Assembly (NCBI RefSeq): GCF_964355755.1
Contig: NC_092676.1
Span: 23,790,288-23,854,287, forward strand
Source of the DNA: Antedon mediterranea
Lineage: Eukaryota > Echinodermata > Crinoidea > Comatulida > Antedonidae
Length of the DNA: 64,000 nt
Direction: 5' to 3'
The notes beneath the pieces were generated by a model that did not search any database, was not told where the DNA came from, and saw only the letters and a program-made list of their open reading frames with translations. Of this stretch, positions 9,802 to 64,000 are shown in pieces. A program made the translations under genes and the position numbers. Positions within the stretch are counted from its first letter, which is position 1. Each line of letters opens with the position of its first letter.

Positions 9802-12800
9802 TTAAGTTAGCGTCCTATCGGTAACACCAACGCTACTTGACATGTGCTGGTTATGGAACTTTTTCCAGGCAGCATTGACCTAAGAATAAAATATTTAATT
9901 TCAATTTAGTAGGAATAATGTTTAAAATGCAGCAAGACCAGAATAAAAAAAATGCATAATAAAAATCGACGATTTTAAAGCATTGTGAAGATAAATTGAT
10001 CGCAATCAAAATGAAATGAATATTACTGATATAGCTCCATAATTTTTCCGGAACTTTCTTTCTTTCTCCGAAATTTTGTTTATTTTTAAATTAAGATATT
10101 CTGTTTAGATTGTTACCTCTTTGCTAAGAAAACATTGTGTAAACCAGATGAGAAAACCTTGTAAAGACGTTGATATAACAAATAGATATTGCAAAACGAT
10201 GGAGTCATCAAACAGAGTTAAAATACCAAAAACCCACGTCAGTCCAACAACGGGGCTTAGAAGAAGAATTCTGTAAAACAGGTTCCTACAAAAAAAAAAG
10301 ATTACTCAACTTAACGTTACAAACTAAAGAATAATCACCTAGGTCGATGTCTACTTTTGAAATCTAGATCATTATAATAACAATTAATAATAGTCCCGAA
10401 ACAAGATATTTGGTACTTGAGAAGTCTATACAAGGAGCTAAAGTAAATTTTGAAAACTCGCTTCGCTCGCGTACCATCTAGGTCGTGTCCACAGATGGTT
10501 CTCGAATACACAGTAATTTCAGCGTAAAAAAACTGGCGATTTCAAGTACGTACCGCAGGACTATAAATACATTGTCGTTTTCAGAAACGAATAGAGCCAC
10601 GATGATTAATGTGGTCAACTAAAATTAGCACCCTGGGAATTAGGCCAACTTCCGAAGGAGAAACTAAAAAATGAGTCCAAAATTTTGGAGTCCAGATTTG
10701 AACTCATTTAAACAAACCCAATTTGTGTTTTGTATATAACATTAGAGTTGAGGGATGGGGAAGAGGATGGGAAGAACACTTTTTAAATATATTCTTTATC
10801 CACTCAGTGTAACGAAATATTTTTATAGGCCTATCAATAATATACCACTAAACACAGTAAACATGTTACGATTTAAGACCTTTTTATAACTGTCCCTGTT
10901 ATAGTCGATTGAAATAATACGACGTTTATATTTTTTAAAGCTATTAATTAATACAAACATTGAGAAGCAACTGTCAGTAATCAAGTTTTTATTTGTATAT
11001 TATGTGTTTATATATCTAGCTGTAGAGCCTACACACAGTCACAGTAATAAATGTTCTTTGTATATGTGTTTATATAAACAGTAATCACATTCACAGTAAG
11101 AAAATTTCGATTCAAATGGCGACCAAAAATGGGTAATACGTACAGTATTTACAATATTGTCAATGTATTGCAATACTAATACTATATCTGTTTTAAGTTT
11201 ATTCTCTAAGGGCCCATAAATTTACCTACTTGTTTTAAATCAAGGGCTCATAAATTTACCTACAAACTGGGAGTTTGATGTTCCATTCATCGCAAATCAA
11301 TACATTTGTATAAACGAATATTAAATCTATCAAAATAGTATTTTTTAAAGAAAATCAACATTATGTTACTGTACTCGAGCTGTTCAACTGGTTTTCAGCT
11401 ATTAAAAACTATTATTTTAGGAGGAGATCTTCGTATTATTGTGTGCAGGTATTTTTCAAGAGGACATACATTAGACAGTGTATACCACGATCGGAAAACA
11501 CCCATATTTTGGGGCAAATCGTTGAACCTAAATTCGTTTAAATTGTCAATAACTAATTATCTAACTCAATTTATTAGTAAACAGGGTTACATCAGGTGGT
11601 TAAAATCAGTACCGAGATTCTAACCAACTTTATATACCATCGAAAATCTAGAAATAACGCGCAATTTACCGAATTTTGCCCTTACGTAAATTTATATATA
11701 GATAATAATGAGGTAATAATTATGTATGTTACCGAATAGTAGTTAAACTCACCGAATATGTTGAAGGTTACTTTTATTTTCATCAGATTGATGAGGCATA
11801 CGAGCTTTTGTGTACGCCACATAACCAATTATACTCAGTTGGAAAGAAACAACCTAGATTCAAATAAAGAAAACAGTTTTGTTGATCATTTTATAGTAAT
11901 AATATTTTCTTAATTGTTTAACAGTAACAAGACCATACTAACCACTATTGATATGATAACCGGGACAATAAATGTCCACGTGACCCCAGTGTCAATATTT
12001 AACCAGCAACTACAAAATAATAAATAAAATATGTTTTATTATTAGGTTCAAATATTTAAATGTTGTTGTTTTTGCGTTTATTTTTAACTCCAAATTAGCA
12101 ATGAATATACGTACATTTCGTCATAATTTAGACAAAAGTGTCAAAGTGTAAATATAAGAGGATATCTTACTATAATGTTGATTATAACACTGATCCAACA
12201 CTTTGGTAAACTGATACAAACGCATATATGTTGATAAACGCTAAAAGCTTTATTATTTTACCTCTTAGACGAGTAGTTCTCTCTCGTCACAGAGACTGTA
12301 ACAGCGACTACTAAAAGAGGAAACATCCACCCAAATATTCTACAAAATCGAAACCTTTTCTCCGAATCATGGAATACATATTGGATCGACATGTACATGT
12401 CAGTGGAGAGAATAGTCATCCATGTAAACGCTACAAGTAAACAGTAATGGAGGCAAGAGGCGACAATGGAACAGGCGGTCTGAAGAAGAGCAAAACACAT
12501 TGATAGGTAAATAAAAACATATTAGAAATTGATAGGTAAATAAATAAGAATTACTAATAAAAAAATATCCTATTTAAACCGATCTAGAGCTTTTAGTTTT
12601 GTAGGATATTTAACTTAAAATAGCAGCAGTAATACTGATAATAACTTATTACAATATTCCTTCCAATCCTAAGGTCCGGGGGTTCAATCCTGACATAGTG
12701 CCAGGGTTTTAACTCTGACTCTTTCAACTCCACTCCCTAAACTCCCTAAATGTTGAATTAAACTTCGTCGTGAGCGGTTGTGTTTACTCGGACCTCTCTC

Positions 12801-15800
12801 TAGGCCTCAAAAGTACTCGAGCAGTCTAGGCGATACCGGGGCAAACAGAATTTTTAACCACTTCGCATTGGTGGCTCAGGGGCACTCCCTAAGCCTAAGT
12901 AAAACAACGAAACCAATTGGTGGATTAATGGCCTTTTAATTGCGGTTTTCTCTTCGCATCGTAGTACTTCAACTACACAACGAAGCCATTTGGTGGATAA
13001 TCAACGCTTTATTAGTCTACGGTTTCAGCAAGGTAAGCGTATTTGACTTCTCACACCTGAAACCAGGAAAAAATGTACATAACCAAAGATTAACATTTTC
13101 CGACGAAGCCTTTTGGTGGATAATTTTTCTGTTATTTTATCCGATGAATCGTTTTTTGATGTTTCTATTTTCACTTTTAACATTAACTGTATCGGTATTT
13201 TATATACCATTGGGTTGCTGAATTCTTGGAATTCCATTTGATTGAATTGTGGATACGCTTACAATTGTATTTTGTAACGTGGACGGATACAGACGAGCTC
13301 AACACGAGCTATTTTTCGAGCAACGCGATCTTTTTGCTGGTCAGATACGGCATACAGGTAACCTTCCAATATGACTTTTAGTATGGCTTCCTTTATTATC
13401 CATGCATCAGTGCTTGTTCTTTTGATTAACAATGTGAAGCATTTTCAACTTGTTGACCAATTTTTTAACGCAACCGCCGAAGAGAGATACGACATATCAG
13501 CCATTTTTACCAGGTGCAAACATTCCAACGCTAACTTTGCGGTCGCTGCAACAAGTGTCATTTTTGTATCGCCTGCCTATATTTACAGTTCCGGAAATTA
13601 TCAAACAAGGAAGAATACGTCCCACATACACCGGACTTTTGATCTTAGAGGGAAAGGCTTACTCTTTGCTATCTTGCTTAAATGTGGTGATATTTCTCCA
13701 AACCCGGGACCCGGAATCCATCTCAATGTGGAGGAAGACTTCAATGTTTTTAAAGAAAAGGGCCTTCACTTCATTCATCTTAACGTAAGGTCAATACTGC
13801 CAAAGATGTCTGAACTCCGCCTACTCGCAATAAAAACCAATGCAGCCGTTATCTCTATATGTGAAACTATGTTGGTTAATACTGTTCCTGATGCGGAGCT
13901 CAACATTGAAGGATACAACGTTTTCCGTCGAGATCGAAATCGGTCTGGAGGAGGTGTTTGTTTTTTTGTCAAGGAAAGACTATCTATACGCGAACGCCGG
14001 GACCTGGATTCTGAAAGTATTGAATCAATTTGGATGGATATTTTGCTTCCGAGGACGCGTCCTATTGTTGTTGGATCAATTTATCGTCCACCAAGTCAAA
14101 AATATATTGGCTGCTATTCGACCAGATGTCGAAGTTATTGTCCTTGGTGACTTCAATATTAATTTGAAAAATGAATCTGCATCAATATACAAAATGTTAG
14201 AAACAACTCTTGAAACTTTTAGCTTTACCCATCTGATAAAGGAACCAACTCGAATTACTAAGTATACGTCAACAGTTTTAGATATTATCATATGTAACCA
14301 TTCGCAAAAAAATTTGCAATCGGGTGTCATCCATGTAGGCATTAGTGACCACAGCCTAACGTTTTGTACTCGTAAATCTTTAAAATATAAATTTAACCAA
14401 CATAAAACTATCAAAATTCGTTCACTTAAGAACTACGATGTTAATATTTTTAATGAGCAATTAACACAATCTGATTGGTCGCCTGTTCTCGATTCATCAG
14501 ATGTGGACTTTGCCTGGTGCTCTTTAAAAAAAATATTTTTGTCTCTTATAAACAGAATGGCTCCTCTCAAACAGGTGCGCCTAAAACAAAAATCTGAAGA
14601 GTGGATGACACCGGAAATATTAAGTGCCATAAAAGAAAGAGACTCACTATTAAATAAGTTCAAGAATAACCCAAATAGGCCAGACCTTTACGATGCATTT
14701 CGTAAGTTACGTAATCGCATACAAAAGGACATAAAGAAAGCAAAATCTGAATGTTTTTTAAATAAGGTAGAAGTTAACAAAAATAATCCCAATAAACTCT
14801 GGAAATGCCTTAAAGATTTGGGATATAAAAATAAGCCACAAAAGGGTAGCACTGTTTCGTTAGATGTTAATGGGAATCTTTGCCATAATGAAAGCGAAGT
14901 TTCAAATTATTTCAATAAATACTTCGCAAATATTGCTTCCGATTTAATGAAGAAATTGCCTTCTCCCAGTAACCTTTTTAGTGTGGGTTTGAATGCCTTT
15001 AAAAATTACTATAATAGCAAAATCAAACATGTTTCTGGTTTTTCTCTCGAAGAAATTGACGAGAGCCTTATCGAAGAGGAATTGAGAAATCTCAACCCAT
15101 CTAAAAGTGTAGGCCTTGATCAGATTCCTGCAAAATTTCTTAGAGACGGAGCTCCTAATATTAAAATACCAATAACACATATAATTAACCTCTCCATTAA
15201 ATACGAACGTATTCCCTCGGATTTTAAACTCGCAAAAGTCACGCCCCTTCATAAAAAGAATTCCAGAACTGAGGCTAACAATTACAGACCTATAAGCATT
15301 CTCTCCTCAGTTTCGAAAATTCTGGAGAAGGTGGTATATATACAAGTTTCCGATTACCTGGAAAGGAATCAACTTATCTACGATCATCAATCCGGTTTTC
15401 GTAGATCATTTTCTACCGACACATGTCTTATCCATCTTAGAGATCACCTTAGAGTTCAAATGTCAAATGGTTTATTTACGGATATGGTTTTACTCGATGT
15501 CCAAAAGGCCTTTGACTCGGTCAATCATGATATTTTGTGTAAAAAACTTAAGTATCTAGGATGCCGGTCTATCGGTTGGTTTCAAGCGTACCTGTCTGGG
15601 CGAAATCAGATTGTCGATATTAAAGGTACCAAATCGAACTCTATTGAGATTGGATGTGGAGTCCCCCAGGGTAGCCTTTTGGGTCCTCTCTTGTTTCTTA
15701 TTTACGTGAATGACCTACCATCTAGTATCGAAAGTGATTGTAAAGTTGTTTTGTACGCTGACGATTGTGCAATTTTTTACTCCCATAAAGATCCAATCGC

Positions 15801-18800
15801 AATCCAATCTAAACTCCAAAACAATCTCGTATCATGCAATAATTGGCTGATCGACAATCAACTTTCGCTTCATATGGGTAAGACCGAATGCATCCTGTTT
15901 GGTTCTAAACGTAGATTAAGCAAAGTAAACGAATTCTATATTGATTGCTTTGGAACGACTATAAATGGATCAAAATCTATCAAATATCTAGGTATTGAGA
16001 TTGACCAAAATGTATCAGGTGACGTCATTGCCCGCTCTGTTATAAACAAAGCAAACGGCAGACTGAAATTTCTGTACCGACAATCATCATTTCTTAATTC
16101 ACATTGTCGCAAAATTCTTAGTTTTGCTTTAATCCAACCGATGTTCGATTATTCGGTTTGCTCATGGTCTTCTACGGTAAATAAAAATTTAAAATCAAAA
16201 TTACAAACGACTCAAAACAAAATGGTTCGTTTTATAAAAAAGTTAGGTCCCCGATCTCATGTTGGTCAATCTCAGCTAAACGACGTTGGCATGTTAAAAG
16301 TCCAAGACCGTGTCGAATTTCTTAGAGTCTGTCATGTTTTTAAAATATATAATCATTGTTGTCCACCTTATTTATGCAATCGTTTTATTAGAATTTCAGA
16401 CAGTCATAATTACAATACTAGGGGATGCAATTTTAATTTTAGAATCCCAACTATCAAGCCAATGGCACATGTGACCTTTTTTTACAATGCTATTAAAGAA
16501 TGGAATAATTTACCAATTAACATTAAGGAATCACAAACTGTTTGTTGTTTTAAAAGTAAAGTTAAAAAGTATCTACAGGAACGTTCACTAGCTCTAGAAA
16601 CTATTTAATTAGCGCTTCTTCTTTTTTCGATTGTCCTTTTTGCTGTTTTTTGTAATTTTTTTATGTTGCTTTGTTTGTCTTTTTTGCTGTTCTTTCAAAG
16701 GACCTCATTGGAAACAAGTCCGTAGAGGACTTTTATGAGTTATCCTTGGCATCCTTGTTTTATATTGGTATTTTTATATTTGCCAATTTTAATTGTATGT
16801 CTGTGATATTTTATGTACTGATGCCGAAATAAATCAAATCAAAATCAAATCAAATCAAGCGTGGTTCCCACTAGCGACGCAACGCAAGGACGTAACGCAA
16901 CGCAAGTGAATTGACCAATCACAAGCGATAGCTTATTCGCTTGTGATTGCTAACTGTCTATAACTTCGCTTGTCATTGGTTAAAACGCTTGTGTTGCGTT
17001 TACGTCCTTGCGTTACGTTCTAGTGGGAACCAAGCTTAAGCCTCAAATGAGACTTAGTTTACAATCATGATAAAGTATTATATAGTTTATCCATCCTGTA
17101 ATTGGCGAGTCACTCGCTTTTGGATGTGTATAAACATTTAAAAAATATATGTTTACCTTATTTTCAATTTCAAAGACAATGGCAGTGAATAAACAGTTCG
17201 ACAAAAACAGAGAGGCAACCAGATGACCCAGTATGCTGTAACGAAGTGATCTTCTTAAGTCGCTACAAAGAAATATTAGTGTTTGTATAATACACTGACG
17301 CAACTGAACGAATTGTATGCAACGTTTTGTACGTAACGGTTTGCACGTAAAAGTATGTACGTAACCTTTTTAAGCAAACATTTTAGCGTAATTTTTTTAA
17401 CGCAAACTTTTTCCACTTTTGTACGTAAACTTTTTCAAACTTAAACGCTTGCGTTGCGTTTACGTCCTTGCGTTACGTTCTAGTGGGAACCACGCTTTAT
17501 CTACGTAACATTTGTTTACGTAACATTTACGCAAATAAAAGCATTCATCAAACCTTAAACATGTGATGGTTCCAAAAGTCAACAGTAGAAATATACTTGA
17601 AGAGAACAAGCCTATATACGTGATCACGTGAAGACCGACGTCATCCGTTATTATCTCCTCCTAAAAAAATGTCAAATAAATTAAATGCCTTGTTAACAAT
17701 ATCTTCTAAAGTATTTTATGTTTTATTTCTTTGTGTATAGTCGTGATTTGTTAAGTTCAGACTTACTTATGTTTTTAATTCGGTTTTCTGATGAAACAAT
17801 TTTGAACATGTATTACAGTATTTTGGTCACTGACAGTTGGCGATGAGAGATCCAATTTCAATGATCAGTACCAAGTAATAAATGAATAATTCCACCGAAT
17901 TTTAAAAGAAGTAGAAGATAATCAACCTACCTCTTTAGTTCTCATAAGGACCGCAAATGTTGTTAAGTGTTCACACGAACATGTTACTCCTTCTGTATGG
18001 AAATCCTTAGATATTGTAACACAGCCTTTGGTTGACCATTCCCTGAAATTATTATATGAATACAGTAGAACTTACGACGTGTAATAATCGATAATCAATC
18101 ATTAGTAATAACCGATAGTTATTAATAATCGATAATTATGAATAATCGATAATTATGAATAATCGATAATTATGAATAATCGATAATTATTAATAATCGC
18201 TAATTATTAATAATCGATAATTATTAATAATCGATAATTATTAATAATCGATAATTATTAATAATCGATAGAACATTGTTAGATAATAATCCAGGGAAGA
18301 ATAATTAATTCTTATTTTTGCTGTTTTATTTCAAATTGTTCAACTATTACCAAAAACAAAAAGCATACGATAGAATTGTTGTAAGACTTACCAAGGGTTT
18401 ATTTCTTCGTTGATAAACGAGCAGACAGGTTCTAATGTTGTTACATTTTCATTATAATTAATCTATTGTGTTGAATAAATATAGCTTAGATTATGAAAAG
18501 GCCAATCTAAAGTCAATTTGTTAAAGATATATATAGGAAATTGTAAGTTCTTAACACTATTGATTAATGTTTTTCGGTTACAATATGTCATCCAAGACAT
18601 TTAAACCGTCATAAAAAACTTCATTATTGCAATAATGGTATCAATAAATACAAGTTACCTGTGTAGGTGGATATATTATTGTTATTTTTACTTTGGAAAT
18701 AATGTTACCATTGGCATCGTAATACACAACAGAGACTAAATCGCTTGCAACAGACGTATCCTCATCGGAAAACCTGGGAAGTTTGAGGGAAATTAAAGTC

Positions 18801-22538: not shown

Positions 22539-24289
22539 GTTCAACCTAAAATCTGCAAAACAATGAAATATTATATTATTTATATTATATTATTTTGACT
22601 CACGCGTTAGAAACGGTGTCCTATCGAGTAATCGAATTTTAGAAATACAAACAAATCGAAAATGTATAGAATATAAAGCATGTGTAATATCTAACACGGA
22701 CCATTTATTTGATATTAAACAAATAAAGTAAAGAACGTCTTAGAACATATTATTGTTTTGTGCTCTTATTGACTTTGTTTGTTTGTGATATTTATTGCTA
22801 TCCATAAAATACACAATACAATACATTATAGTTTGAAATTAACAAAATCATACAAAAACTAAATGATTATACAGTTATAGAATAGCAGAGGATAACCCTT
22901 TAGGCTGGGAAGCTTGTTTCAGCAGGGGTCCTCGACAATTATTAAACATCTAACATAGAAAGATAAAATTTAGTTATATACTACAATTTACATTACTTTA
23001 ATTAATAGATGAAATAACAATTTAGTATTTTATTTTATTTATTTTACAAATGAATATACAGTACCCTTATTATTAGTCCGAAACAATTATTTATATTTAC
23101 AAAATAGTTTACCAAAATACTAAGTAATTTTATATTATTACTTATTAAAAAAATATAAATTATAATTTTAATATAGTTAAAATTTTCAATATAGTTAAAA
23201 TGAGAAGTATATTATAATACATTTGTCAGCATTATTAGTTTACTAGAATGTTCTTGTAAAGGTCTTGATTTTAGAATAAAAGGCATAAAGAACTCATATC
23301 TGAATGCTTCTACAACTTGGAAATAATATGAAATAAAGAATAAACTGCTTACCTTTAATTCATAAAGAAATAATATAGATTGCCTCAACCAATAGGTTAC
23401 AATAGCTTTCTAATGCATACTACTGTATAATTCACAATATACATTTACGAAATGCTTCTAAATAATGCGTATAATAATGCCTGTAGAGACTTCACATCCC
23501 AGAAGCAGCTTTATTTCCTCCTGTGTGCGATAATACATTCAGCTTGTTTTCTAGTGCGAGTGTACACAAACCAATGTAATTAACTTAATTGAACCAGCCA
23601 CAGAATGGTATAGCCAATATGTTTAGTTAATTACATAATATGTGTACATGTTAATTTTAATTACAAGATAGAGGTTTCCTTTCAAAACTATTTAAATTAA
23701 TGCATACTTTATTAAAATGACATTGACGACAATATCAAAATCTAATCTACTTATTTGCGCTAGATTATGTAATCTAACAAATGTATTGTTTGGTTTTCTT
23801 ATTATTACAATCCAATTATAATGGCATCATCAAATAATATTTTAGTATAACTTTTAATAACACGAGGCATGAATTGCAATGTGTAGGCATGAAAATCTAT
23901 CTTTATTCACGCAATTTTTCTATTTTTTTTCTTCTTTTTAAAATTAAAAAAGCTTTTTTCTTATTAATATTAGTGGTTATGAGACACATTTCATCAAAAT
24001 GATAACACCATTAGATTACCAATAATGACACACAATTGCAATTTGATTAATTTAAATGGTTACATTCATTATTTTTTACTTCAAAATATGTGTATCAAAA
24101 TAAATATTATTATTATTTTGATAATAAAAAACCTTAAAAAATCTTTTTTATTAATAAATTTAAGTTGTTTCCATTCTTTGATAGTTCGTCTGATTGCACG
24201 AACGCGAAATTCCTTTGCGACTGCGCAATAGGTTTGATATCCAAAGTGTATTTTGTTAGGTCAATAGGAGGCGGTGTTCATATACTCTG
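22539..24289. other. Spacer between genes A and B
   Basis: AT-rich. Bases about 22795-22945 look like a retrotransposon 3' end in reverse (AATAC-type tail; CCTTTAGGCTGGGAAGC block). The rest holds nothing I can name. Promoter elements of gene A must lie here but none is recognisable. Confidence 0.4.
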
Positions 24290-27200
24290 CTATTCCGAAG
24301 ATGTGTAAACGCTGTTTGACAGGTGTTGCATTTTGAATTTCTTCCATGCTGATTTAACCTACGAAACAACCAATTCAATTGCTATAATTAGCATAAAATA
24401 TTGGTTCATATTAAAAATGTTCACGTCATCATGACGTAAACAACGGATCTATTTTATTGAATAAGAACAGTTGAAGGATCCCAACTAAAAGGAAACCTTG
24501 TCTCACGTCTTAACTAATAAATAATTATCCAGCGTACTGTTTTAAAATATGAGCAGTGTGTATATTTAGGGCCTACACAGAATTTGCTTTAACCTCTCTC
24601 ACCTCTTTGCTTAGAAAACACTGAGTAAACCAGATCAAAAATCCTTGAAAAGATGACGAAAAAACAAACAAGTATTGTAACACGATGCTGTTGTTAAAAA
24701 GTAGAAAAATACCGAAGATCCAGGTTAACCCAACTGCTGGCGTCAGAAGAAGAATCCTGTACAACAGTGTTCTAAAATTAAATAAAAAGTTGAAAAAGTA
24801 AAAAGTTCAGTCTATCAATCTCTTATGTCGCTGTAGTTTTTCAGGAAAAGGTGTAACTCGCGCTCCCTTGGTTTATTGTGAGCTTTAAATATAAGGACGA
24901 ATCATCGTACTTAGCAAGACACAGTCAACTTCATTTCACAGATTACCTTATACGGAACTCTCATAATCATCATATAAATAATTGTTTTCTCAGAGGAGAG
25001 GACAGAACGAACTTAATAATAGTTAACCTTAACAAAAGAAACAATCGAATTTGTTTTGGATCAAAACAGCCTTTTTCCTGGATTACTTAGCTATAAAAAA
25101 AGAGTAGTGAATTTTTACCTTATTTGCTGCAGTTTACTTCTCTCATCATCGTTCTGAATACTTTGTGATTTGGTGTACGCAACATACCCTACAACACTCA
25201 GTTGAACGGTTACAACCTGAAAGCCAAGTTAACCATTGTAAATGTAATACCTACTAGTCAAATTGTAGGTCTAGACATTTTCCAAATCTTTCCAATAAAT
25301 CAAAACGAAAGACAGTTAATCAACAATTTTTAAAATAGTATTTTCCAATATTGTGAAAATAACTGGACCGATGAATGTCCACGTCACGCCATTGGCAGTG
25401 TTCAGCCTACAACTTAAAACAAAAAAAGAAAAATAGTTTAAAATAAACATCCAACACAACACAAACATGTACCCTTACCAACTATATTCTATCGCCAAAT
25501 ATAAACATTATCTATCTTGAACTATTGTTACATTAATCAATATTGTAAATATGTAAAGTTTTTCATGTCGATTCCTCGGTATTTTACGTAAGCTTGAAGC
25601 TCCAATGTGGTGAAGTAAGACGTTTGTAAAGTCTTATGGTCTTTTTATACAATTAACGCTTTGAGAGGTTATGCTTAGCTAAAGTTTTAATACCTTTCAG
25701 ATGCGTAGTGTTTACCACCAATAGAAACGGTAATTATAACCAACAGCAGAGGAAATGCCCATCCAAATATTCTGAAAAATACAAATCTTCTTTCTGGATC
25801 CCAAAACGCATGTTGAATGCACATGTACATATCTGTAGACAAAATTGCCATCCACGAAAACGCCACCAACAGGGAGTAATGCAGACAGGCTGCGATCAAA
25901 GAACAGACGACCTGCGATGCAAGTGATTTGATAATTAATAGAGATGTTGTAGTTTAGTTGTGGTTTATTATAGTTAAGTTACGTTTTAAACAGTTCATAA
26001 TAAATCGTAACGTAAAGTATTGGTTGTTTCTTGCTCTTTACGGATTATAATTCTGATCTATCCGAATTCAGTAATATAGGCCTATACAGAAAACTAGGAA
26101 TGTCAATTTTTAAGTTCGTAACCAGCCAAGTAACCCTCCTCCATTCCCCTCCAAAATACAAATCCTCAGTTTTCTGATGTACAGTAACCATAACTACTTA
26201 CCCTGTTTGTTACGTTTAATGACAGAAAAAAAAAACAAAAGTTTGTACACAGCAACGAGATAACCAAATGCCTTAACATCCTATACCGTCTGGATTTCCT
26301 AAGGTCACTAAAAAAATTAAAGTAAATTTACAACATTTCAAAATAGAAAATTATCATGTTTTGTTGACGTTTTTGGAAAATTCCAAGAAAAATCTGAAAC
26401 TTTTTCCGGGTTCTATTCAACACCAGCTTAACTTTTATACGTTTATCTATTTTATATTAAAAAAAAAATGTTTCTCCAACCTGAGAAAACATATGATACA
26501 CATTGTGAATATAAGAAACCCATTGAATATTGTCAACCCTGCATACGATAGTACTTCCACACCAACGGCAGCATCTTCGTCTGTTTTTTAAGTATCCTGA
26601 AAATGAACATTTCAATTAGTCTATCCATGGAGGTATACAATAAGCTTGAACGAACAGTGTGTATGGTAAAATACTGCGTACTTTAAAATATGGATATAAG
26701 AAGCATTACAAAAAACAGAATAATTGTGATTTGGATGTGTATCAACAACTTATATAATTACCAAGAACAAACATTCTGTTTTTCTATACAGTCATTTAGT
26801 TGTCAAAAAGGTAACTTAAGGCTCCCAACAACTATTTTTGTAGTCGTGCTTGCGGTTTACACCCAGTTTTATGTTCGTATAGTATAGGCTCTCACTACCG
26901 ACACTACATTCAATCACTTGGATTAGTTTAATCTGGCAGGGAGAAGAGTCTTCCCTTGATCAGGTGATCAATTTGATCGGTAGTGAAAACCTACTAATAA
27001 CAAAACAACCTTATGAGATGAGGAACAAACGCATACCTCTTTAGTTTGCATAAGAATTGCAAACGTTGTCAGGTGGTTACATTGACATACTATTGGTTTA
27101 GTCTTAACATCTTCTGATAAAGTTTCACAACCTTCTTTTGACCAAGTGCTTAAACAAACAAGTAGAGTAATACTTTTCTTATTAAAAATTGTAAGTAGCA

Positions 27201-27989
27201 ACTTGGTGTTAACACGCTCCTAAATGTAGATATACTTGCATACGCATGACACTTACATAGGACTTGCGGATTCATCAATAAAAGAACAGATTGGTTCCCT
27301 GTTTTTAAGTTCTGCTTCCTCAGTTAGCTAAACAAAACACAGTTTCATTAATCAGCACGGAATACAGTAATCACCATTGATTCTTCTTTGTTGTTTTCAT
27401 TTGTTTTACTTGGTAAAATTATTGCAAAGACACAAAATAGTCCACAATTTGAAATACAGACCATGAACATTGATGATGATTGGTTTCTCTGCATTTTGCC
27501 AACTATTATTTCGACATGTCGCTTCTTATTTTGATCATTGGGGCCCTCGACAATACAATACAATACAAACAGTACAAAATACATTATCATAAACAAATAA
27601 TTATAAAAAAACTACTATATTTATATTAAAATTGTGATAAAATTTCTAGATTTCATAAAATTCAATAAGTAATGTTTTTAACACATCACTTAATATATAA
27701 TTATTTTATTTACAATGTTAGGCATATAGTTGATCTATGTTTAAGTGAAAACATCCTTCATTACCTTTAATATGGGGAAAACAAGTTTTACATTTGCATT
27801 TCTTGTATCATTTCGTCCATTGACATAAACTGTTACAGATACAAGATCACTCACAACTTCAGAATTGGTAAGATCGCTACTAAATCTGAAACAAATTAAA
27901 ACACAAATACTTTGACAAAAGAGGTCATTGTCCTGCATTTATTTGGACAGTTCTGTTTCTTTCGAAGGGGTGAGCGTCATCATTTTTAG

Positions 27990-28775
27990 TCGCGTGGAAG
28001 CGACTCTATAGTTCACTATGTCGGTCGGTCGGTCTGTCTGTCTGTCTGTCGGTCTGTCTGTCGGTCTGTCTGTCTGTCTGTCGGTCCGGTATCACTATGC
28101 GTTTTATCGCTTTATGACCTTATCTTGATATCAGTTTAATCTAGCTAAATCAATTTTTCACAGAATATTCCTTATGGCCAGGAATCGATGTGGTTATGAT
28201 TTCACGGTGCGCAATAAAAAATTACGCGGTCTACGCACGATTTAACGAAATCACGTTTGTAATCATATCTTAACAACCATGAATCACAATTAAATAAAAT
28301 TTGGTACTCATACATTTCAGGGCATAAATCATCATATGGCAATACAATTACGTGCGTAGCGCATGTAACGCATGCGTACGCGCGCCTAAAATTTTCAAAA
28401 TTTATTTTCGATGAAATAAGAGTACGTTTCAGGCAATTTTAAGCGTTTACAAAATTGCCATGAGTGCGCAGATTTTTGCGCGCGCACTGCGCGTTAAATG
28501 TTATTGCGCACTCTTTTTGCCCGATTTCTGTTTTCTTGACATACTTTTCAACTCGAAATTACGTTATACGAGCACGTCAAAAGTGACAGGCTACGCACGT
28601 GTAAATTAAAAAAATATAAATGTTTTTAAACATTTCAACATTTTTAAACATGTTCAGTAATTCCGGTCAGTATAGTTCACTATGTCGGTCGGTCCGTCTG
28701 TCTGTCGGTCTGTCTGTCTGTCGGTCTGTTTGTCTGTCGGTCCGGTATCACTATGCATTGTAGCACGCGACTTAA
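27990..28775. mobile_element. Short-TIR element with paired GTCT microsatellites
   Basis: Bounded by AGTCGCGTG (27989-27997) and its exact inverse CACGCGACT (28764-28772). Inside each end is a copy of a block of about 85 bp: TATAGTTCACTATGTCGGTC, a GTCT/GTCGGTCT run, then GGTCCGGTATCACTATGC, in direct orientation. The core is unusually rich in CG steps (GCGTACGCGCGCC). No coding frame. Probably a non-autonomous DNA element in an intron of B. Confidence 0.6.
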
Positions 28776-31397
28776 TGGCTGTTGGCCTTGTTTAAATAAA
28801 GCTAGATATTATTTTTTTTAAACCCCAGTTTTCCTTACTCAATTATGTCTTATTACGAATACTCACGGTATTGACAAATTTACAGATATCAACTTGGCTG
28901 CAATTACTCCAATTGTTTCTTTAGATAATAAATATAACTACAATTAGACAAACCACGGACCTTTTCAATCTTGTAAAACGTATTACAGTTTCGATTATTT
29001 GAATTGAGTTCTAGTTTGGGCCTCTATGGCAACAATTCTCACATTCACTTGAAAGCGCTTTGTATTTGTAATTTTTTTCTTTTACTGCCTACAAGTGCTC
29101 TTTCGTTCTATTGTTATTCCAATTAAATAACTACTCTAAAACTAAACCTTTGATACAATAACTTACCTTCCAAATTTTTGTCCCATTCGAGTGCAAGTAC
29201 GATTGTATTTTGTTCTCTTGTTATACGAGTCAATTCAATCGTTGGGTTTGATGATTTAATGAGTACACCTTCTAATAATGTATTAAAACATTATTACAAT
29301 CAATTTAAGATTTAAAATTTTTTTTCAACAACTGATGTGCTACTACCGTAGCAGGAGTGGATACGGGATTTGTTTGTTGTGCATTTACCTGAGATGTTAT
29401 TATCTTTAAAATGTATATAAACAAGTAACGGGCTTAATGTTTGAAAATGGCATAGACGTTAGATATGTTATTATACCTATCGTATACTATTCCTAAAAAT
29501 GTATAAATAAGTATTACCTGCTTTGACATCCACTGTGAAGTATATCAATTCTCCGTCTGCTAGTTGATCCAATTTAGAATATTGCACAAAAGTGATGTTA
29601 TTAACGAGGGCAATTACATCATTTGAAATAGCCGTGTCTGGTCGTTTAAGGGGACAAAATAAGTATGTATGTTTAGATGTTCTGTAGTTAACATTTTGTC
29701 ATTAAAATTGATAAAAACCAAAGAAAAACAATTTGTTGTAGAGAAATGGATTTTCTAAAATAATGACAATGATTAATAGAGATGAAAGCAAGTTGTTCAA
29801 AAATAACAAATTATTAAAAACAAAAGTTCCGCGAAGAAGGCATCGACAGGACCCTTAAACCGGCACCATAAGGAATGAAGGTCAATTATCCCGTATCTGA
29901 GTATTAAGTAAGTAAAAAGAATTTCCTGGCATTACTACAGAAAGTAGTCTTGCCCAAAAAATACTCCTGAACTGAATCATACCTTGTGAATCGTCAATAA
30001 CATCTGACTAGCTGTTTCGGTGGCCGTGCAACCACCGGGTCTGCCCACTCCGCTATGAAGACAATCAGTAAGTGCTGCCTCGGAACCAAGACAATGCATC
30101 GATTTAACTATTGGTTCTCCTTCTCCGTGGTACGAACCCGTGTGGACTTCTATGGCAGACGAGTAACCTAGCTGTCGACAAGCAACGGTCCCATCATCGA
30201 TGTCCCATTCGTCATCACAAACAGCTCCCCATGCTCCGTTTTCGTCTGATATCTCCACTCGACCTTCGTTGGGCGATAGTCCATTTACTAGTCGAATATC
30301 TAAAAAAGTAACTTTAATCCGGAAATAAAGCTTCATTTTTATTTGATTATTATATTGGTATTATTATATTATTCACTTGATTACTAATACATAGCATTAT
30401 AAAAATCAATTAAAAAATTGATAATTATGAATTTGAATAAAAGTGTATCAATTATATTATTTATATTATCAGTAAGACTAGTAATTGCCTGTTAATGTCT
30501 ATGTATAGCATTGAATAATTTATCAATTTGATATTTTATCAGAAGGCCAATAATTGACTGTTTAATGGTATGATGATATATTAACCAACAAAAGGAACAC
30601 TTGTTGGTGGATGTTATAATAAAAGTAGTCTAGTTAATTAGGCTTTGATAAACATAAGTACACCAATTTGGAGTTTTATACAGTACATTTATGTATAATA
30701 TTGGCAATACCTAGTGTTGTATTCATACACTGAACTGAAACTCTTCGAACGCGTGGTGTATAACAATCATCCGATACATTTCCAAATCTTCCAACACCAT
30801 TTGTACATTCAATCAAAGAATTTTCATACCCATTACAATCGACGTCATCTGCAACCATGATACCACCAAGTTTGGCGTATCTGTCGAAATTGTAACAGGA
30901 TCTATAGTTTAAATACCGACATACGACTGAACAAGCCTTGAAGTTCCATCCATGTGAGCAGATTGTTCTATAGGAACCATTGAAGTAGAGTCCAACAGTA
31001 CCTTCATGAGGTCCACTTCTGTCCGCAAAGATGAGTTCTGAATGAGCAAAGTAAGAGCATGGTTAATACTATAAACTAGAAATTGCATAGTGAAAGCAAA
31101 CCTACACTGTTTGCTTGCACATTGCTTTGACATACACTGTCCTTAATCAGCTATTTAAATAATACATAATACTTAAATGTATCTTGTGGTTCGGCGGTTA
31201 CTAAAGAGAACCCAATTCGACATTCTGCAAGAACAATATGTAGAATGTTTCTACTTAAGTTAGTTGACTATGAATGTTTCTTTGTTGTGTGAGTATTAAA
31301 TACTATTTTGAAAGTACTATCAGGAGGATCTCTCGCGTTGTATAATTCTCCATCATATTTCGTTCAAGATTCACCTAGAGAGTACCAGAATTTGATT

Positions 31398-31534
31398 AAG
31401 CTCTGTCTACACTATCAAACTAGTTTGACAAAAACGTGTGATATGCTTAAATATGGTAGTGATATAACATCATCATGTCTATATATGGACAAATTATATT
31501 TTTGATGACATAACATTGTGTAGACAGAGCTTTA
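31398..31534. mobile_element. MITE family 2 copy
   Basis: Complete short element: left end AAGCTCTGTCTACACTATCA, inner TATGGTAGTGATATAACATC, right end TGTAGACAGAGCTTTA. It lies between the signal-peptide and linker exons of gene B. Confidence 0.85.
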
Positions 31535-31879
31535 GGATCCCGAGAACACGATCATTCAAACAACCTCCAAAAATTGGTTACGAATAGACAAAGTTGAATT
31601 ATTCTCGGTAGCTAGTTCGCGATCAAGACAGACAGCGAAAGCTCTATAAATTCACGCTTTCCTAATATGATTAATTATATTGTGAGTTTTTATAGTTATA
31701 TAATTAAGGCCTATATAATTATAGTTTTTCTAAAGAATTAAATTAACTGGTAATAATGATTTTCTTATTTATATTACCTGAACGAAATGTTGTAAAGATC
31801 AAAACAATCTTGAGCCAAATGTCATGGAAGTACATACTACTAGAACTTAAAAGAAACCACACCATCATCATCATCATCA

Positions 31880-32041
31880 TCAGTCGGCTGCGGACCAGAC
31901 GACTACAAGCTTTCTCCAGCCACAACGGTCCTTGGCTAACTCTGACAGCTTATCAGTTGTAATCATGCCTCCTTCATCCCCTAAAAGCTGTTGGATGTAT
32001 CTCAGAAAGTTGGTTTTCTGCCTTCCTCGTTTTCTTAAAGT
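31880..32041 (-). mobile_element. LINE ORF2 C-terminal fragment
   Basis: Minus-strand frame of 53 codons ending in a stop followed by a GAT repeat tail (31862-31880). It reads KRGRQKTNFLRYIQQLLGD near the start and LAKDRCGWRKLVVVWSAAD at the end. The DR..WR.LV..SAAD ending is the usual C-terminus of I/Nimb-like LINE polyproteins. It is a 5'-truncated insertion. Confidence 0.75.
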
Positions 32042-33115: not shown

Positions 33116-33235
33116 TAAAGCTCTGTCTATACTATAAAGCTTTACGCGACAAAAAAAGTGTGATGTGCCTAAATATGGTAGCGATATGCCCGAATATATG
33201 GTAGTGATATGACATTGTCCATATATATCTTTAAA
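33116..33235. mobile_element. MITE family 2, left part
   Basis: Starts AAAGCTCTGTCTATACTATA and keeps GTGTGATGTGCCTAAATATG; the right end is missing. Confidence 0.7.
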
Positions 33236-33431
33236 AGAGGTCTTGCGTCGGGTAAGCCTAACATGGTTATGACAATAGTATCTGTTAAAGGTTTACATCA
33301 CAGTTGTAGTGAATTATGTGCAGTTGAGTTCCGGTGCCGGAACCCTTACAACGGCGAAAAAAATGTGGTGATATTGTGGTCGTCACGCGAAAGAGAACCA
33401 ACAACAAATAACGTGACTTAAAAATGTTCTG

Positions 33432-55083: not shown

Positions 55084-55204
55084 CGCAAGTACACGCTAGA
55101 ATGAAAAATGATAAAAGCAGTTTCTAATGTTAGTTTCCACTGTGTCTAAGTGTCTACATAGTTATTTAAACATCTAACACTTTATCTGCAGATATGTTAA
55201 AATT
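55084..55204. other. 5' flank of the first coding exon of gene D
   Basis: Short AT-rich stretch between the signal-peptide exon and the minisatellite. It probably contains the 3' end of a 5' UTR intron. Confidence 0.3.
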
Positions 55205-55985
55205 AGCCAATATGCCTACCTGTGGTACCACCATTACAACCATACCTAACAGTAATGACGTATCCTTAACATTTGAATAGAGTCATTGGCCTACCTGTGG
55301 AGTACCACCGTTAAAACCATGCCTAACAGTAATATATCCCTAACATTTGAGGAGAGTCAATAGGCCTACCTGTGGTACCACCGTTAAAACCATGCCTAAC
55401 AGTAATAATTATATCCCTAACAGTTGAAGAGAGTCAATAGGCCTACCTGTGGTACCACCGTTAAAACCATGCCTAACAGTAATAATTATATCCCTAACAT
55501 TTGAGGAGAGTCAATAGGCCTACCTGTGGTACCACCGTTAAAACCATGCCTAACAGTAATATATCCCTAACATTTGAGGAGAGACATTGGCCTATCTGTG
55601 GAGTACCACCGTTAAAACCATGCCTAACAGTAATACATCCCTAACATTTGAGGAGAGACATTGGCCTACCTGTGGTACCACCGTTAAAACCATGCCTAAC
55701 AGTAATATATCCCTAACATTTGAGGAGAGACATTGGCCTATCTGTGGAGTACCACCGTTAAAACCATGCCTAACAGTAATATATCCTTAACATTTGAGGA
55801 GAGACATTGGCCTACCTGTGGTACCACCGTTAAACCTATGCATTAACAGTAATATATCCCTAACATTTGAGGAGAGACATTGGCCTATCTGTGGAGTACC
55901 ACCGTTAAAACCATGCCTAACAGTAATACATCCCTAACATTTGAGAAGAGTCAATATTATTGGCCTACCTGTAGTACCACCGATA
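55205..55985. repeat. 72-75-bp minisatellite upstream of gene D, about 10 copies
   Basis: Unit GGCCTACCTGTGGTACCACC + GTTAAAACCATGCCTAACAG + TAATATATCCCTAACATTTG + AGGAGAGACATT. Two subtypes alternate over part of the array (GTGGTACC and GTGGAGTACC). On the minus strand each unit contains CACAGGTAGGCC, a splice-donor-like site. Confidence 0.92.
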
Positions 55986-56503
55986 TTCACATAAAAAGAA
56001 AGTCTTCTCAGCTTCTGGAACCCAACCCAATGAATAAAATGTAATGAAAAATGCAAATCGGTGACCAACTAAAACGTGATATTGAAAAAAAAGCGTGGAA
56101 GATTACTTTTGCAATCTACAATAACACCATCGTCAATTTCTTAATAAACTTATTGATATTATATATTACTCTAAATAATGAATTATTAAACAAACCTTTC
56201 CACGTTAGCAAAAAATTGTCTACTAACTATATTGAATCCTCGAACCAATGCAATTATTTTAGCATTATCGAGGTTTGCGTCTTGTCCATTTGAGATTATT
56301 CTGGGCATAATAAAATAACATTGCAATAGGATTCTCATTTCTTTTGAATTAATCACATTAGTATATTCGTTTTCAAAATTAATGAAAATATACAGTAATA
56401 CTCGATTTAGATACATTGCAAAATGAGATAATAATTGTATTTCTCAACATGCCAACGCGGAGGAAAGAAGACAAATTCTCTACCATGATACTGAATCTGA
56501 AAT
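55986..56503. other. Spacer between minisatellites
   Basis: AT-rich unique DNA; short frames on both strands without recognisable domains. Confidence 0.35.
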
Positions 56504-57008
56504 ATGGTATAGTCCATCTATGGCATAGTCCATCTATGGTATAGTCCATATATGGCATAGTCCATCTATGGCATAGTCCATCTATGGCATAGTCCATCTA
56601 TGGCATAGTCTATATATGGCATAGTTCATCTATGGCATAGTCCATCTATGGCATAGTCCATCTATGGCATAATCCATCTATGACATAGTCCAACTATGGC
56701 ATAGTCCATCTATGGCATACTGTAGTCCATCTATGGCATAGTCCATATATGGCATAGTCCATCTATGGCATAGTCCGTCTATGGTATAGTCCATTTATGG
56801 CATAGTCCATTTATGGCATGTTCATCTATGGCATAGTCCGTCTATGGCATAGTAAATCTATGACATAGTCCATTTATGGCATAGTCTATTTGTGGCATTT
56901 AGTCCATTTATGACATAGTAAGTCTATGGCATAGTTTATCTATGGCATAGTCCATCTATGGCATAGTCTTCTATGGCACAATCCATCTATGGCATAGTCC
57001 TGTGGCAC
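56504..57008. repeat. 16-bp tandem array, about 31 copies
   Basis: Unit CCATCTATGGCATAGT, with variants such as CCATTTATGGCATAGT and some 1-5 bp slippage. CCAT..ATGG in each unit is an inverted pair. Confidence 0.93.
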
Positions 57009-59365: not shown

Positions 59366-62300
59366 CTATTCCGAAGAGGTATCAACGCTGTTTGGCATGT
59401 GTTGCATTTTGAATTTCTTCCATGCTGATTTTACCTAAAAAGTATACAAATATAAATGCTGTAATTAGCATAAATATTGGTTCTTGTTCACCTGGGCGTA
59501 AAGAAGTATTGGACGTGGCGAAGATCGGTAACTAACAGTATTTCTATGCATTAGTGTGTCTACCTCACTGCCTTCAAGTCACATGCTAACTAATGTTTTT
59601 CTTATGTAAACCAGCACAAAGTATAGAAAAGAAACATTTGCTTTTATATTACAATATTCTAATTATTCCGGTTGATTTTTCAAAATATGAGACACGTGAA
59701 TGGTTAGTTATGTCTTAGCTTTAACTTTTCTCACCTCTTTGCTAAGAAAACACTGTGTAAACCAGATCAAAAATCCTTGAAAAGACGACGAAAAAACAAA
59801 CAGGTATTGTAACACGATGCTGTTGTTAAAGAGTAGGAAAATACCGAAGATCCAGGTTAACCCAACTGCTGGTGTCAGAAGAAGAATTCTATACAACAGC
59901 GTTCTAAAATTTAAATAAAAATGTTATGTGTCTCGTCTAGTTATTTAAAATCTCTTTGCTTGCAAATTGTTGCAGTCACTATTCAGGGAAAAGTGGGACT
60001 CGTGTTCCTTGATCAAAGTCATACTTGCAAGATACAGTCAACTTCCTAGACTGATTGAGGCACTCCTAATTCGATCTGGGAACTGGGCATCACATCAACT
60101 ATTAAAATTGTCTAAACAGGCTGAGCGCGAATCATCGATGATGATGGCACTATGGGTTTTTTCCCGAGAGAAACTTAATCGAACATTATCTCTTACAGCG
60201 TTTATTTATTTATTTTATTTAACCTTATTTTAAAAAGGGGTAACCCTAAACAGCGTATGCGGACAATCAAGGGGCCCTCTTGATGAGTTATGATAAGTGT
60301 CTGTGTGTAGACTGGACCGACGGTTTATAGTCCTTATCCAAGAAGATCGTTCTACCACCATGGCAAGGTATTACCATGGACCTATAAATTTATAGGTCCA
60401 TGGTATTACGGTTAACCTGTCTTAACCGCTCACTTGCATGCGTTCAATTTGTATTAAAATAGCCATTCGTTGGATTGCTTACTTTGAGGGAAGAGTATTA
60501 GGAATTCTTAACTATACCACTGTTTACTTACCTTATCTGCTGAAGTTTACTTCTCTCATCATCATTTTGAATACTTTGTGACTTAGTGTACGCAACATAC
60601 CCTACGACACTCAGTTGAACGGTTACAATCTGAAAGCCAAGTTAACCAGTGTAAATGTAAAGAATATGGTTAGAATATAGAAATGTTCCCGCAACTAAAA
60701 GTCTCTCTCCTACAGATATTTCTGGCCTCAATGAACTTATACAGCTGTATCTGTAATGCAGATAAAACATATACCACAAACCCAGGTAAAAGAGACATAA
60801 TTTAATTAAAAAATGTATGACAGTTATATAATTTATACTATACATTCAGTTAATTGCTATCTATTTTCATACTATAAATAAAATTCTTTCTGTTTAAAAA
60901 TTATAATAAAATAATGTTTACCAATATTGTGAAAATAACGGGACCTATGAATGTCCATGTCACGCCATTACTAGTGTTTAGCCAACAACTTAAAAAAATA
61001 AAAGAAAACTAGTTTCATTACACCTCTCACTAGAAATAAATATATTTATAAATGAATGTGTAGCCGATCGGTTAGTGGCTAGAACCGTAGCCCATAGCCT
61101 TATGGCAAGGGTTCAGGTTCGAGGCTCACTCATCGCTCCATGGTTATAGCCTAGTACAACCGTCGATACGAGTAGAGGGTTGTGTACTGTACTAGTACAC
61201 ACATCATGTCGCCGACAGACGAACAATGTTGTTGGCAGCACCGAAAGTTGAAGCATGATAGTAGAAAATCTAAGTCCATAGCGCATTCAGACGACATGAT
61301 TTGTAAATAAATAAATTCTATTACGATTAATTATGGAGGCATAACACAGATTCTGTGGTACGTTACGTAGGCATAAAGCTCTATTTTGTAAATTTAAACT
61401 CTGGTGATAAAAAGTCTTTTCTTATTTCGTGCGATCCTACAGTATGATTCAGGACACATTAACAGGAAAGTCTTATCAGGTCCATTTTTTAAAATACCAG
61501 GGTAGGGTGTTTAATACCTTTCAGATGCGTAGTGTTTGCCGCCAAAAGAAACGGTAATTATAACCAACAGCAGAGGAAATGCCCATCCGAATATTCTGAA
61601 AAATACAAATCTTCTTTCTGGATCACAAAACGCATGTTGAATACACATGTACATATCTGTAGACAAAATTGCCATCCACGAAAACGCCACCAACAGGGAG
61701 TAATGCAGACAAGCTGCGATGAGAGAACAGACGACCTGCGATAAACAATCAAAATCTTTAATTCATTGATTTGATTTTGTTTTTGTACTATGATATCAAG
61801 TTAGTTACTATTCATTTAACAAAATAAATATAATATATTGGTTGTGTCTTAAAGAAAATTCATTTATGAGGTAGGGAAGTTGCTATTTAAATACCCCATC
61901 TCCCCCCTTCCTCCAAATCATTTATTCCATTTATTTACAAAGTACAGAACAGACAAATCGTAGAAGGAAGTGGACATTTACTAAAAAAAAGTGAGTGGTA
62001 CTGTGTGTAATTTAATGAGTAAATTATAGTGTTATATTATCGACAAATCAAGAACGAGTTTGCAAAGACAAATTTACCAAGAAAATATAATTTGCTAAGC
62101 AAATTAAACTCACCTTGTTTGTTATGTTAAATGACAGAAAAGAAAAACAGAAGTTTGTACATAGCAAAGAAATAACCAAATGCCTCAACATCCTATACCG
62201 TCTGGATTTCCTAAGGTCACTAAAAAAGCAAAGTAAATTTAAAAGCTGTCAAAAATATCTGTTTCGCTGGCGATATTTCAGATTTTATGTTAATATTAAA

Positions 62301-64000
62301 CGGGTTTTATTTGTTCAAACCTGAGCAAGCATATGATACACATGGTGAATATAAGAAACCCGTTGGATATTGTCAACCCTGCATACGATAGTACTTCCAT
62401 TCCAACGGCAGCGTTTTCATCTACATTTGAAGTATCCTGAAATGATATCAGCAATTTACGTTACATTTAAGTTTTAAGGTAAAATGCCACGCATACATTT
62501 TACAAAATGTGTAATTTTGTTTGCCCGATATCCTAAAGCGTGGTTCCCACTAGCGATGCAACACAAGGACGTAACGCAACGCAAGTGAATTGACCAATCA
62601 CAAGCAATGGCTTATTCGCTTGTGATTGCTAACTGTCTATAACTTCGCTTGCCATTGGTTAAAACGCTTGCGTTGCGTTTACGTCCTTGCGTTACGTTCT
62701 CTAGTGGGAACCAAGCTTTATCTGATCAACAACCATACAAACCAAGCTTTGTGTTGAGTTTTTTTTTATTACCATAGTATATGAATTTCATAATATTCAT
62801 AACTTAACATAGTTAATTACAATAATTAAAAATAATAATAAATACTACAGTAGTAATGAATACAATTTATGTGTTTAAATTTTAAATGTAAATATGTATA
62901 ATTATGTTTGTATGATGATGTATGTTTAAGCGGATATTAGCCCTTGATGGCATTTGCAGCAATAAAGAAATTGAATTGAATTGAATTGAATATACAGTAC
63001 ATCTCCTTAAATATTGAAGTTCTTAACACATTCACTTAGCGTATTAAATTCTTAGCGTATTCACACAATTCATATCAATTTGGCATATTCATTTCTTAAC
63101 ATAATCATTATTTTAGCATATTATTGTGTTCATTTTTATATATAAAGATTGTCGGGTTGCACCAAGGTATACTACATTCGTTGATAAAAACATGATAGAT
63201 TCTTGTAACTGATCAGATCGATACAGATCAATTACTCATTCGGAATCGCTAAGTTGCAATCGGCTTTTTCGGCAGTGGGATCAACCAAAACTCAAACATG
63301 GCAGATTTGCCCCCCAAAAAACAACATGAAAACAATCAAGAATGAAGTCATACCTCTGACGTTTGCATAAGAATTGCAAACGTTGTCAGGTGGTTACATT
63401 GACAAGTTATTGGTGAAGTCAGAAAATCTTCTGATATAGTTTCGCAGCCTTCTTTAGACCATGTGCTTAAATAAACAAATTTGATAATTTGGATGATAGA
63501 AACTCGCAAGACAACATAAACTCTAATTTGTAATAATAATTTTTTTTCGATTTGTGGGTGTGAAACTCTTATATAGATGTCCCTCCCCCACCCCGACACT
63601 AAGCAAACACTTACACAGGGTTTACAGTTTCATCAATAAAAGAACAGATTGGTTCCATGTTTGCAAGTTCTGTATTTTCAGATATCTAAACAAAACACAA
63701 TATTGATTAGTGCAGAATAAAGACTATTGGTTTTATTCATAATTTTGTCGTAGTCATTATTATTTTCAAAACTAGTTATACATTTTGTATCATTTAGTAT
63801 ACATAGTATTGTTTAATTTCTAGGCCCTATTCCAGTTTTACACGATCAATTTTTGTGTTAATTAATAATAAAAAGATGTTTATTTACCCTTAATGTTGGA
63901 AAAACAAGTTTCACATTCGCACTTCGTGCATCATTTTGTCCATTAACATAAACTGTTACAGATACAAGATCACTCACAACTTCAGAATGTGTAAGATTGC
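59366..64000 (-). CDS. Gene E: SRCR-type adhesion GPCR, 3' part (cut by the window edge)
   Basis: Exons seen (high to low): 64000-63888 (113 of about 121 nt) and 63685-63615 GAIN-like, 63465-63354 GPS, 62436-62321 TM1, 62219-62114 TM2, 61735-61518 TM3-4, 60988-60922 and 60629-60532 TM5, 59903-59735 TM6-7, 59434-59366 tail with stop. Every exon length equals that of gene D (71, 112, 116, 106, 218, 67, 98, 169, 69), and no lesion is seen. GPS ends [17 protein letters not shown], as in D. The signal peptide and SRCR domains must lie beyond 64000; their presence is inferred from the neighbours. Shared intron sequence (46076/61060 block, 3' hairpin) makes D the closest relative. Confidence 0.85.
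60190..60475. repeat. Insertion with a 34-bp perfect palindrome in gene E
   Basis: Relative to gene D, gene E has about 270 extra bases between TTACAGCG and the shared TTGGATTGCTTACTTTGAGG. It contains TACCATGGACCTATAAA followed directly by its exact inverse (60373-60406). Confidence 0.6.
62532..62720. mobile_element. MITE family 1, complete copy in gene E with an empty site in gene D
   Basis: AAGCGTGGTTCCCACTAGCG to CTAGTGGGAACCAAGCTT, flanked by TA on both sides. Gene D has the uninterrupted flank (GATATCCTTATCTGATCAAC near 47710). Confidence 0.88.
62820..62995 (+). mobile_element. Retrotransposon 3' end fragment with ATTGA tail
   Basis: GATATTAGCCCTTGATGGC, then GCAGCAATAAAGAAATTG and a (AATTG)n tail. 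Typical 3' UTR end of a 5'-truncated non-LTR insertion in an intron of gene E. No coding part remains. Confidence 0.6.

Follow-up and report, generated by a model that had tools for sequence, protein, structure and literature searches.

We asked whether the SRCR, GPS and seven-transmembrane (7TM) exons that recur along one stretch of the crinoid Antedon mediterranea genome (contig NC_092676.1, positions 23,790,288 to 23,854,287; the whole 64,000-nucleotide stretch analysed is called the window) form single genes for receptors that couple scavenger-type domains to an adhesion G-protein-coupled receptor (GPCR). Six-frame reading and self-comparison revealed five related copies, A to E, which lie head to tail on the minus strand in one array from 9802 to ~68,385 in window numbering; copy E crosses the window edge and is complete only with flanking DNA (L001). 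With a probability that we put at roughly 85%, these copies represent a lineage-specific adhesion GPCR subfamily with two SRCR domains, a compact GAIN-like region, a GPS and a 7TM domain of the adhesion/secretin type.

Four of the five copies yielded intact in-frame models without internal stops: A (716 amino acids), C (713), D (715) and E (712). AG and GT flanked every internal junction of models A, C and D, and alignment of the copies showed that the GT-AG boundaries are conserved. In each of the four models the order is signal peptide, SRCR1, SRCR2, GAIN-like region, GPS and 7TM, and the exon phases are identical from SRCR1 through the C-terminus. The SRCR exons finish on phase 1 and run in frame into the GAIN-like exons; this holds, again with no stop, in five of the five intact models, the fifth being that of gene F, a dispersed member described below. 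One GAIN exon of E has lost the acceptor found in its counterparts, and a site 6 nucleotides downstream preserves the frame. The signal peptide is encoded by two exons in A and F versus one in C, D and E, and the first GAIN exon is 99 nucleotides long in A versus 120 in the other copies. An initial start for gene A, in which the signal peptide was read directly into SRCR1, was abandoned once two 5' exons common to A and F had been recognized; the second of these is conserved in BLAST (E 0.002) and the first was located by reading. A preliminary description of this DNA had counted five head-to-tail receptor genes with a common exon plan, three of them complete at 735, 727 and 725 amino acids. 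The exon set does recur five times on the minus strand, the shared plan and phases hold from SRCR1 to the C-terminus in A, C, D and E, and A, C and D are in frame; the three lengths were not reproduced, B is a pseudogene rather than a receptor gene, and a further member (F) lies elsewhere.

Copy B is no longer a receptor gene and carries several lesions. Its reading frame is broken because the SRCR2 exon (29983-30299) has a different length, 317 nucleotides, where C has 321 and D has 318. In addition, its TM1 exon (26481-26596; TM, transmembrane) holds an in-frame TAA, the donor after the TM5a exon (25346-25412) is GA instead of GT, and the last, C-terminal exon is altered. Single exons of B nevertheless matched SRCR, GPS and 7tm_2 in Pfam.

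All five intact models (A, C, D, E and F) gave two SRCR stretches (PF00530), a GPS (PF01825) and a 7tm_2 domain above the curated Pfam cut-offs. The 7tm_2 matches covered profile positions 4-250 of 250, with E-values of 4.4e-36 to 1.3e-40 in A, C, D and F and 2.7e-37 in E; GPS exon matches were obtained in all five array copies. The motif HLT|TFA(V/I)LM is present in the GPS of each intact copy (C.C.HLT|TFAVLM in the GPS exon of gene A). Judged by their 7tm_2 domain, the GPS beside TM1 and the HL|T motif, A, C, D, E and F are adhesion-type GPCRs. When the 7TM and GPS portion of C was compared with structures in the Protein Data Bank (PDB), the best match was vertebrate ADGRD1 (GPR133; E 7.2e-42), followed by ADGRL3 (latrophilin 3; 2.5e-37). 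These carry a motif of the same type, HLT|NFA(V/I)LM: HLTTFA(V/I)LM aligns with their HLTNFA(V/I)LM, the established cleavage site and tethered agonist of these two receptors. Since the motif occurs in all five intact copies, autoproteolysis at the GPS and a tethered agonist are predicted, by extension from established adhesion GPCR biology. The N-terminal domains of ADGRD1 and ADGRL3 differ from the paired SRCR domains of the A-F genes. Thus, spliced models, Pfam and PDB matches together support the earlier proposal of one gene unit that combines paired SRCR domains and a 7TM domain with a GPS predicted to be cleavable.

The SRCR2 domain is conventional, with six cysteines in C, D and E; for E, the closest solved structures were CD163, the best match, and other SRCR scavenger receptors. 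CD163-type scavenger receptors are not known to have a GPS or 7TM, whereas the SRCR domains of the array sit on a GPCR. The SRCR1 domain is a divergent one. Every one of the six copies has two additional cysteines in it (35 and 47 of alignment A2), presumably at positions other than those of group B domains (8 cysteines, against 6 in group A), and the SRCR1 of A is without one canonical cysteine. An acidic stretch of SRCR2, CDD with a later glutamate (E), is kept in copies B, D and E, changed in C and absent from A and F. We take it to resemble the cation-binding acidic site of CD163, which makes it a lead only; a literature search for such a CD163-like site found nothing.

The genome (354 Mb, 18 contigs) has a low GC content and no COX1 match in the assembly, and its large SRCR, sialyltransferase and GPS families suggest an invertebrate deuterostome rather than a vertebrate. 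It was then searched with the C protein minus SRCR1, the best 75 of 700 candidates being scored. This recovered the five copies on contig C7 (~23.80-23.86 Mb) as well as strong 7TM matches on C2. On that second contig the sixth member, F, occupies 6,757,874-6,765,943 with a whole exon set and an intact frame of 720 amino acids. F is closest to A (65% identity); the two have the same exons on different contigs, and their ratio of nonsynonymous to synonymous substitution rates (dN/dS) is 0.20 overall, with a dS of 1.2. A tandem duplication of the first GAIN exon and part of the next exon was observed in F (L002, ~5,000-5,620). As far as examined, the SRCR-only matches elsewhere on C7 and on other contigs belong to other SRCR genes.

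Genome-wide there are at least 139 GPS matches (best 150 of 180 candidates scored) and at least 160 to 7tm_2 (best 150 of 367), and the 7TM search found further genes with an identical split of the TM exons. In a 7TM tree of 189 columns and 22 sequences (the five models, 15 relatives and two human sequences, used as outgroup only; the best bit scores of C were with ADGRD1, then ADGRL3), A, C, D, E and F formed one clade with support 97/94. Several relatives are without some exons or are long-branched (for example C3_26.746 and C2_11.122), and the deeper nodes are weak. On this tree the five models are one branch of a larger 7TM expansion in the genome. Within 10 kb upstream of the GPS, Pfam found CUB, LDL-A or HYR domains in the three relatives (of 15) whose upstream DNA was read, and order, strand and distance suggest that these modules are transcribed together with the GPS exons; SRCR profiles had no match in the same three stretches among minus-strand open reading frames (ORFs) of >=30 amino acids. 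Some relatives, such as C3_7.655, have HMT instead of HLT at the GPS. A separate lineage at G000:C3 ~33.424-33.429 Mb (L004) resembles the array in that an SRCR exon precedes the GPS and 7TM exons on a single strand, apparently within one gene. It differs in having one SRCR domain in the 10 kb read and a distant 7TM (TM34 E 2.5e-8 versus <=1.1e-17 at the other 15 loci). Elsewhere, C7:2,285,068-2,320,980 holds a separate tight array of eleven GPS matches with equal or near-equal scores, ~3 to 6 kb apart.

To describe selection, we computed pairwise dN/dS by NG86 for six pairs (C-D, C-E, D-E, A-F, A-C and C-F). Overall ratios were 0.18-0.33. The 7TM gave 0.10-0.17 in all six pairs, GAIN plus GPS 0.27-0.36, SRCR2 0.15-0.47 and SRCR1 0.20-0.68 in the four computable pairs. 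Many dS values of A-C and C-F are near or >2 and unreliable, and the SRCR1 ratios of these two pairs could not be computed because dS was saturated. Signal-peptide ratios of 1.46 (A-C) and 1.24 (C-F) come from 20 codons, have intervals that include 1 and were not interpreted. The genes are thus kept by purifying selection, strongest in the 7TM; the extracellular part is freer but not demonstrably diversifying. For C and D, identity falls from 92.5% in the 7TM to 55.5% in SRCR1. For C-D (Fisher p 0.003) and C-E (p 0.03) the 7TM showed fewer synonymous differences than the ectodomain, and the reverse was true of D-E (p 0.002), the counts for these tests being rounded by hand. Such opposite patterns fit a mosaic history and hint at gene conversion among C, D and E.

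Could the SRCR exons belong instead to neighbouring genes, encoding secreted or membrane SRCR proteins beside plain GPS-7TM genes and joined to them on paper only? This genome is rich in SRCR genes (at least 150 matches, with the best 150 of 408 candidates scored), and the joins between SRCR and GPS/7TM exons were drawn from sequence rather than from transcripts. We nevertheless regard this as very improbable, because the four intact copies of the array share one exon order and one set of phases, which recur in F on a different contig, the phase-1 SRCR exons continue in frame as described above, and the three relatives examined likewise have extracellular modules upstream of the GPS. The loss of B as a gene and of a splice acceptor in E, which needs its site 6 nucleotides downstream, could also be taken to mean that the array is degenerating and most copies are functionless relics. 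Four of the five array copies and F, however, retain full frames under the low overall ratios reported above, and the shifted acceptor of E keeps the frame; we give this explanation hardly any credence.

Several observations do weigh against the lineage-specific subfamily of paired-SRCR adhesion GPCRs that we favour, the manner in which the joins were made being one. The Pfam GAIN model had no match at E <= 0.05 in A, C, D, E or F. A profile of the GAIN region built from the five models (~190 residues) recovered chains of adhesion GPCRs from the PDB, with ADGRL3 as the best match (E 3.7e-8), but that match was confined to columns 111-190 of 192, the 80 columns adjoining and including the GPS, and in this comparison the N-terminal GAIN subdomain was unrecognizable by sequence. 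We call the region GAIN-like because its C-terminal subdomain is supported and its N-terminal one is not. The preliminary description had named a profile search that fails to find GAIN/7tm_2 as grounds for refutation. Half of that outcome was observed, since 7tm_2 was detected whereas Pfam GAIN was not, and of the GAIN region the profile supports the GPS-proximal part only. AlphaFold predictions for the four SRCR1 exons of the window were poor (mean predicted local distance difference test score, pLDDT, 44.7) and were not used. Signal peptides were judged by eye, and all sequence comparisons of the copies were made within one genome. Finally, no computed pair and domain gave significant positive selection, the top SRCR ratio (D-E SRCR1, 0.68) having a bootstrap interval of 0.32-2.08; an arms-race role is thus left without direct support.

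If the paired-SRCR receptors are as modelled, they probably arose when phase-1 SRCR exon modules were placed ahead of a GAIN-GPS-7TM unit, one that other genes of this genome appear to carry with CUB, LDL-A or HYR modules. The subfamily would then have spread by tandem duplication, B to E being young and A and F older. From adhesion GPCR biology, the receptor would be expected to cleave itself at HL|T, its two parts remaining in complex. The SRCR pair might then bind a ligand, which we guess to be microbial, matrix or cell-surface and which would pull or loosen the N-terminal part, and the exposed TTFAILMQT-type peptide would activate the 7TM and a G protein. A recognition-to-signal role is a reasonable candidate idea. 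If SRCR binds microbes and GPS/7TM signals, scavenger-type recognition would be linked directly to G proteins, a route that, to our knowledge, is not established for SRCR receptors. It is also conceivable, though we think it unlikely, that a common GAIN-GPS-7TM chassis with shuffled SRCR, CUB, LDL-A and HYR modules constitutes a multi-locus G-protein-coupled pattern-recognition repertoire, in whose SRCR branch the genes keep similar 7TM ends, perhaps through gene conversion, and diverge at their SRCR ends.

The receptors may also be real and yet serve a housekeeping adhesion or developmental role, in matrix or cell-cell contact, rather than an immune or chemosensory one; we hold this to be a serious contender, somewhat short of an even chance. 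Ratios were below 1 in SRCR1, SRCR2, GAIN plus GPS and 7TM for every computable pair, ADGRD1 and ADGRL3, the closest matches of the 7TM, have non-immune roles, and no tandem partner of F was found among the matches listed in the C-protein genome search. On the other hand, tandem duplication, a pseudogene and a faster-changing binding domain are typical of sensory or recognition families, and the array has all three, SRCR1 having diverged far more than the 7TM between C and D. Moreover, SRCR genes of sponges and echinoderms respond to microbes according to the available text of PMC6208332, in whose sponge challenge it is separate SRCR and GPCR genes that respond. Whatever the role, the locus is a natural experiment in compact form, in which four copies are intact, one is a pseudogene and one paralogue lies elsewhere, and related genes combine other ectodomains with a 7TM unit of similar kind.

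The novelty that the preliminary description implied for SRCR domains on an adhesion GPCR was overstated, for the class has already been reported in outline, at least in the portions of the sources available. The Amphimedon (sponge) adhesion GPCRs Aq712029 and Aq715659 carry multiple SRCR repeats ahead of an adhesion-type 7TM, as in the array, but in a different phylum and with no tandem array described in the available text (PMC4302439). Amphioxus, an invertebrate deuterostome, has adhesion GPCR(s) with an N-terminal SRCR domain, whose number is not stated in the part available (PMC2246102). A survey of SRCR in 29 metazoans places 7tm_2 among the top five SRCR partner domains in the starfish Acanthaster planci (PMC10855680, Table 1), a co-occurrence like that of the array but a domain count only; the words GPCR and GPS are absent from its main text. 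The accessible parts of PMC13228809, of PMC3308324, a review that gives 36-46 chromosomes for most echinoderms, and of PMC7042368 do not mention an SRCR adhesion GPCR, and among the matches listed in the open-access literature no title or abstract is dedicated to a paired-SRCR adhesion GPCR family. Positions of all copies are collected in Table 1.

Table 1. Copies of the array and their exons in window numbering (SP, signal peptide; C-term, C-terminal exon).
Feature	Position	Strand	Basis
Gene A, intact, 716 amino acids	9802..22538	-	spliced model and Pfam
Gene A, SP and SRCR exons	SP 22508-22538, 22278-22319; SRCR1 21569-21910; SRCR2 20860-21189	-	
Gene A, GAIN and GPS exons	GAIN 19771-19869, 19293-19397, 19031-19088, 18659-18773, 18392-18462; GPS 17931-18042	-	
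Gene A, TM and C-term exons	TM 17554-17660, 17157-17262, 12262-12479, 11943-12009, 11753-11853, 10117-10285; C-term 9802-9879	-	
Copy B, pseudogene	24261..31835	-	aligned copies; single exons scanned by Pfam
Gene C, intact, 713 amino acids	33432..42841	-	spliced model and Pfam
Gene C, SP and SRCR exons	SP 42784-42841; SRCR1 41172-41510; SRCR2 40617-40937	-	
Gene C, GAIN and GPS exons	GAIN 39840-39959, 39209-39313, 38969-39020, 37592-37712, 37153-37223; GPS 36927-37038	-	
Gene C, TM and C-term exons	TM 36442-36557, 36190-36295, 35377-35594, 35179-35245, 34734-34831, 33970-34138; C-term 33432-33500	-	
Gene D, intact, 715 amino acids	44364..55083	-	spliced model and Pfam
Gene D, SP and SRCR exons	SP 55023-55083; SRCR1 54055-54399; SRCR2 50346-50663	-	
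Gene D, GAIN and GPS exons	GAIN 49861-49980, 49171-49275, 48927-48978, 48614-48734, 48372-48442; GPS 48091-48202	-	
Gene D, TM and C-term exons	TM 47502-47617, 47279-47384, 46668-46885, 45906-45972, 45509-45606, 44738-44906; C-term 44364-44432	-	
Gene E, 3' part in window	59366..64000	-	exon 63888-64002 (first 2 nucleotides outside) to C-term 59366-59434
Gene E, 5' part (SP, SRCR1, SRCR2, three GAIN exons)	outside window, L001; ends at window-equivalent 68385 = G000:C7:23858672	-	complete model of 712 amino acids and Pfam
Gene E, GPS exon	63354..63465	-	Pfam

Two introns of the array hold retroelement sequence. In gene A, the intron that separates exon TM2 from exon TM34 contains, antisense to A, an element resembling a non-LTR (long terminal repeat) retroelement (13362-16608, plus strand) with an ORF of 924 amino acids at 13834-16605 that includes a reverse transcriptase domain; a shorter and very similar ORF lies at 7959-9227. 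Fragments of another retroelement (52102-53302, minus strand; reverse transcriptase domain in 52102-52803) occupy the SRCR1-SRCR2 intron of gene D. Tandem repeats of 19, ~74 and 16 bp are found within or between genes at 38452-38902, 55208-55982 and 56503-57000, respectively. Downstream of the array, both on the minus strand, lie a single-exon rhodopsin-class receptor ORF (7tm_1) at 1618-2727 and a related 7tm_1 copy split into several frames at 4540-5588. The genome also has a large sialyltransferase family (PF00777), with at least 150 matches (best 142 of 221 candidates scored).

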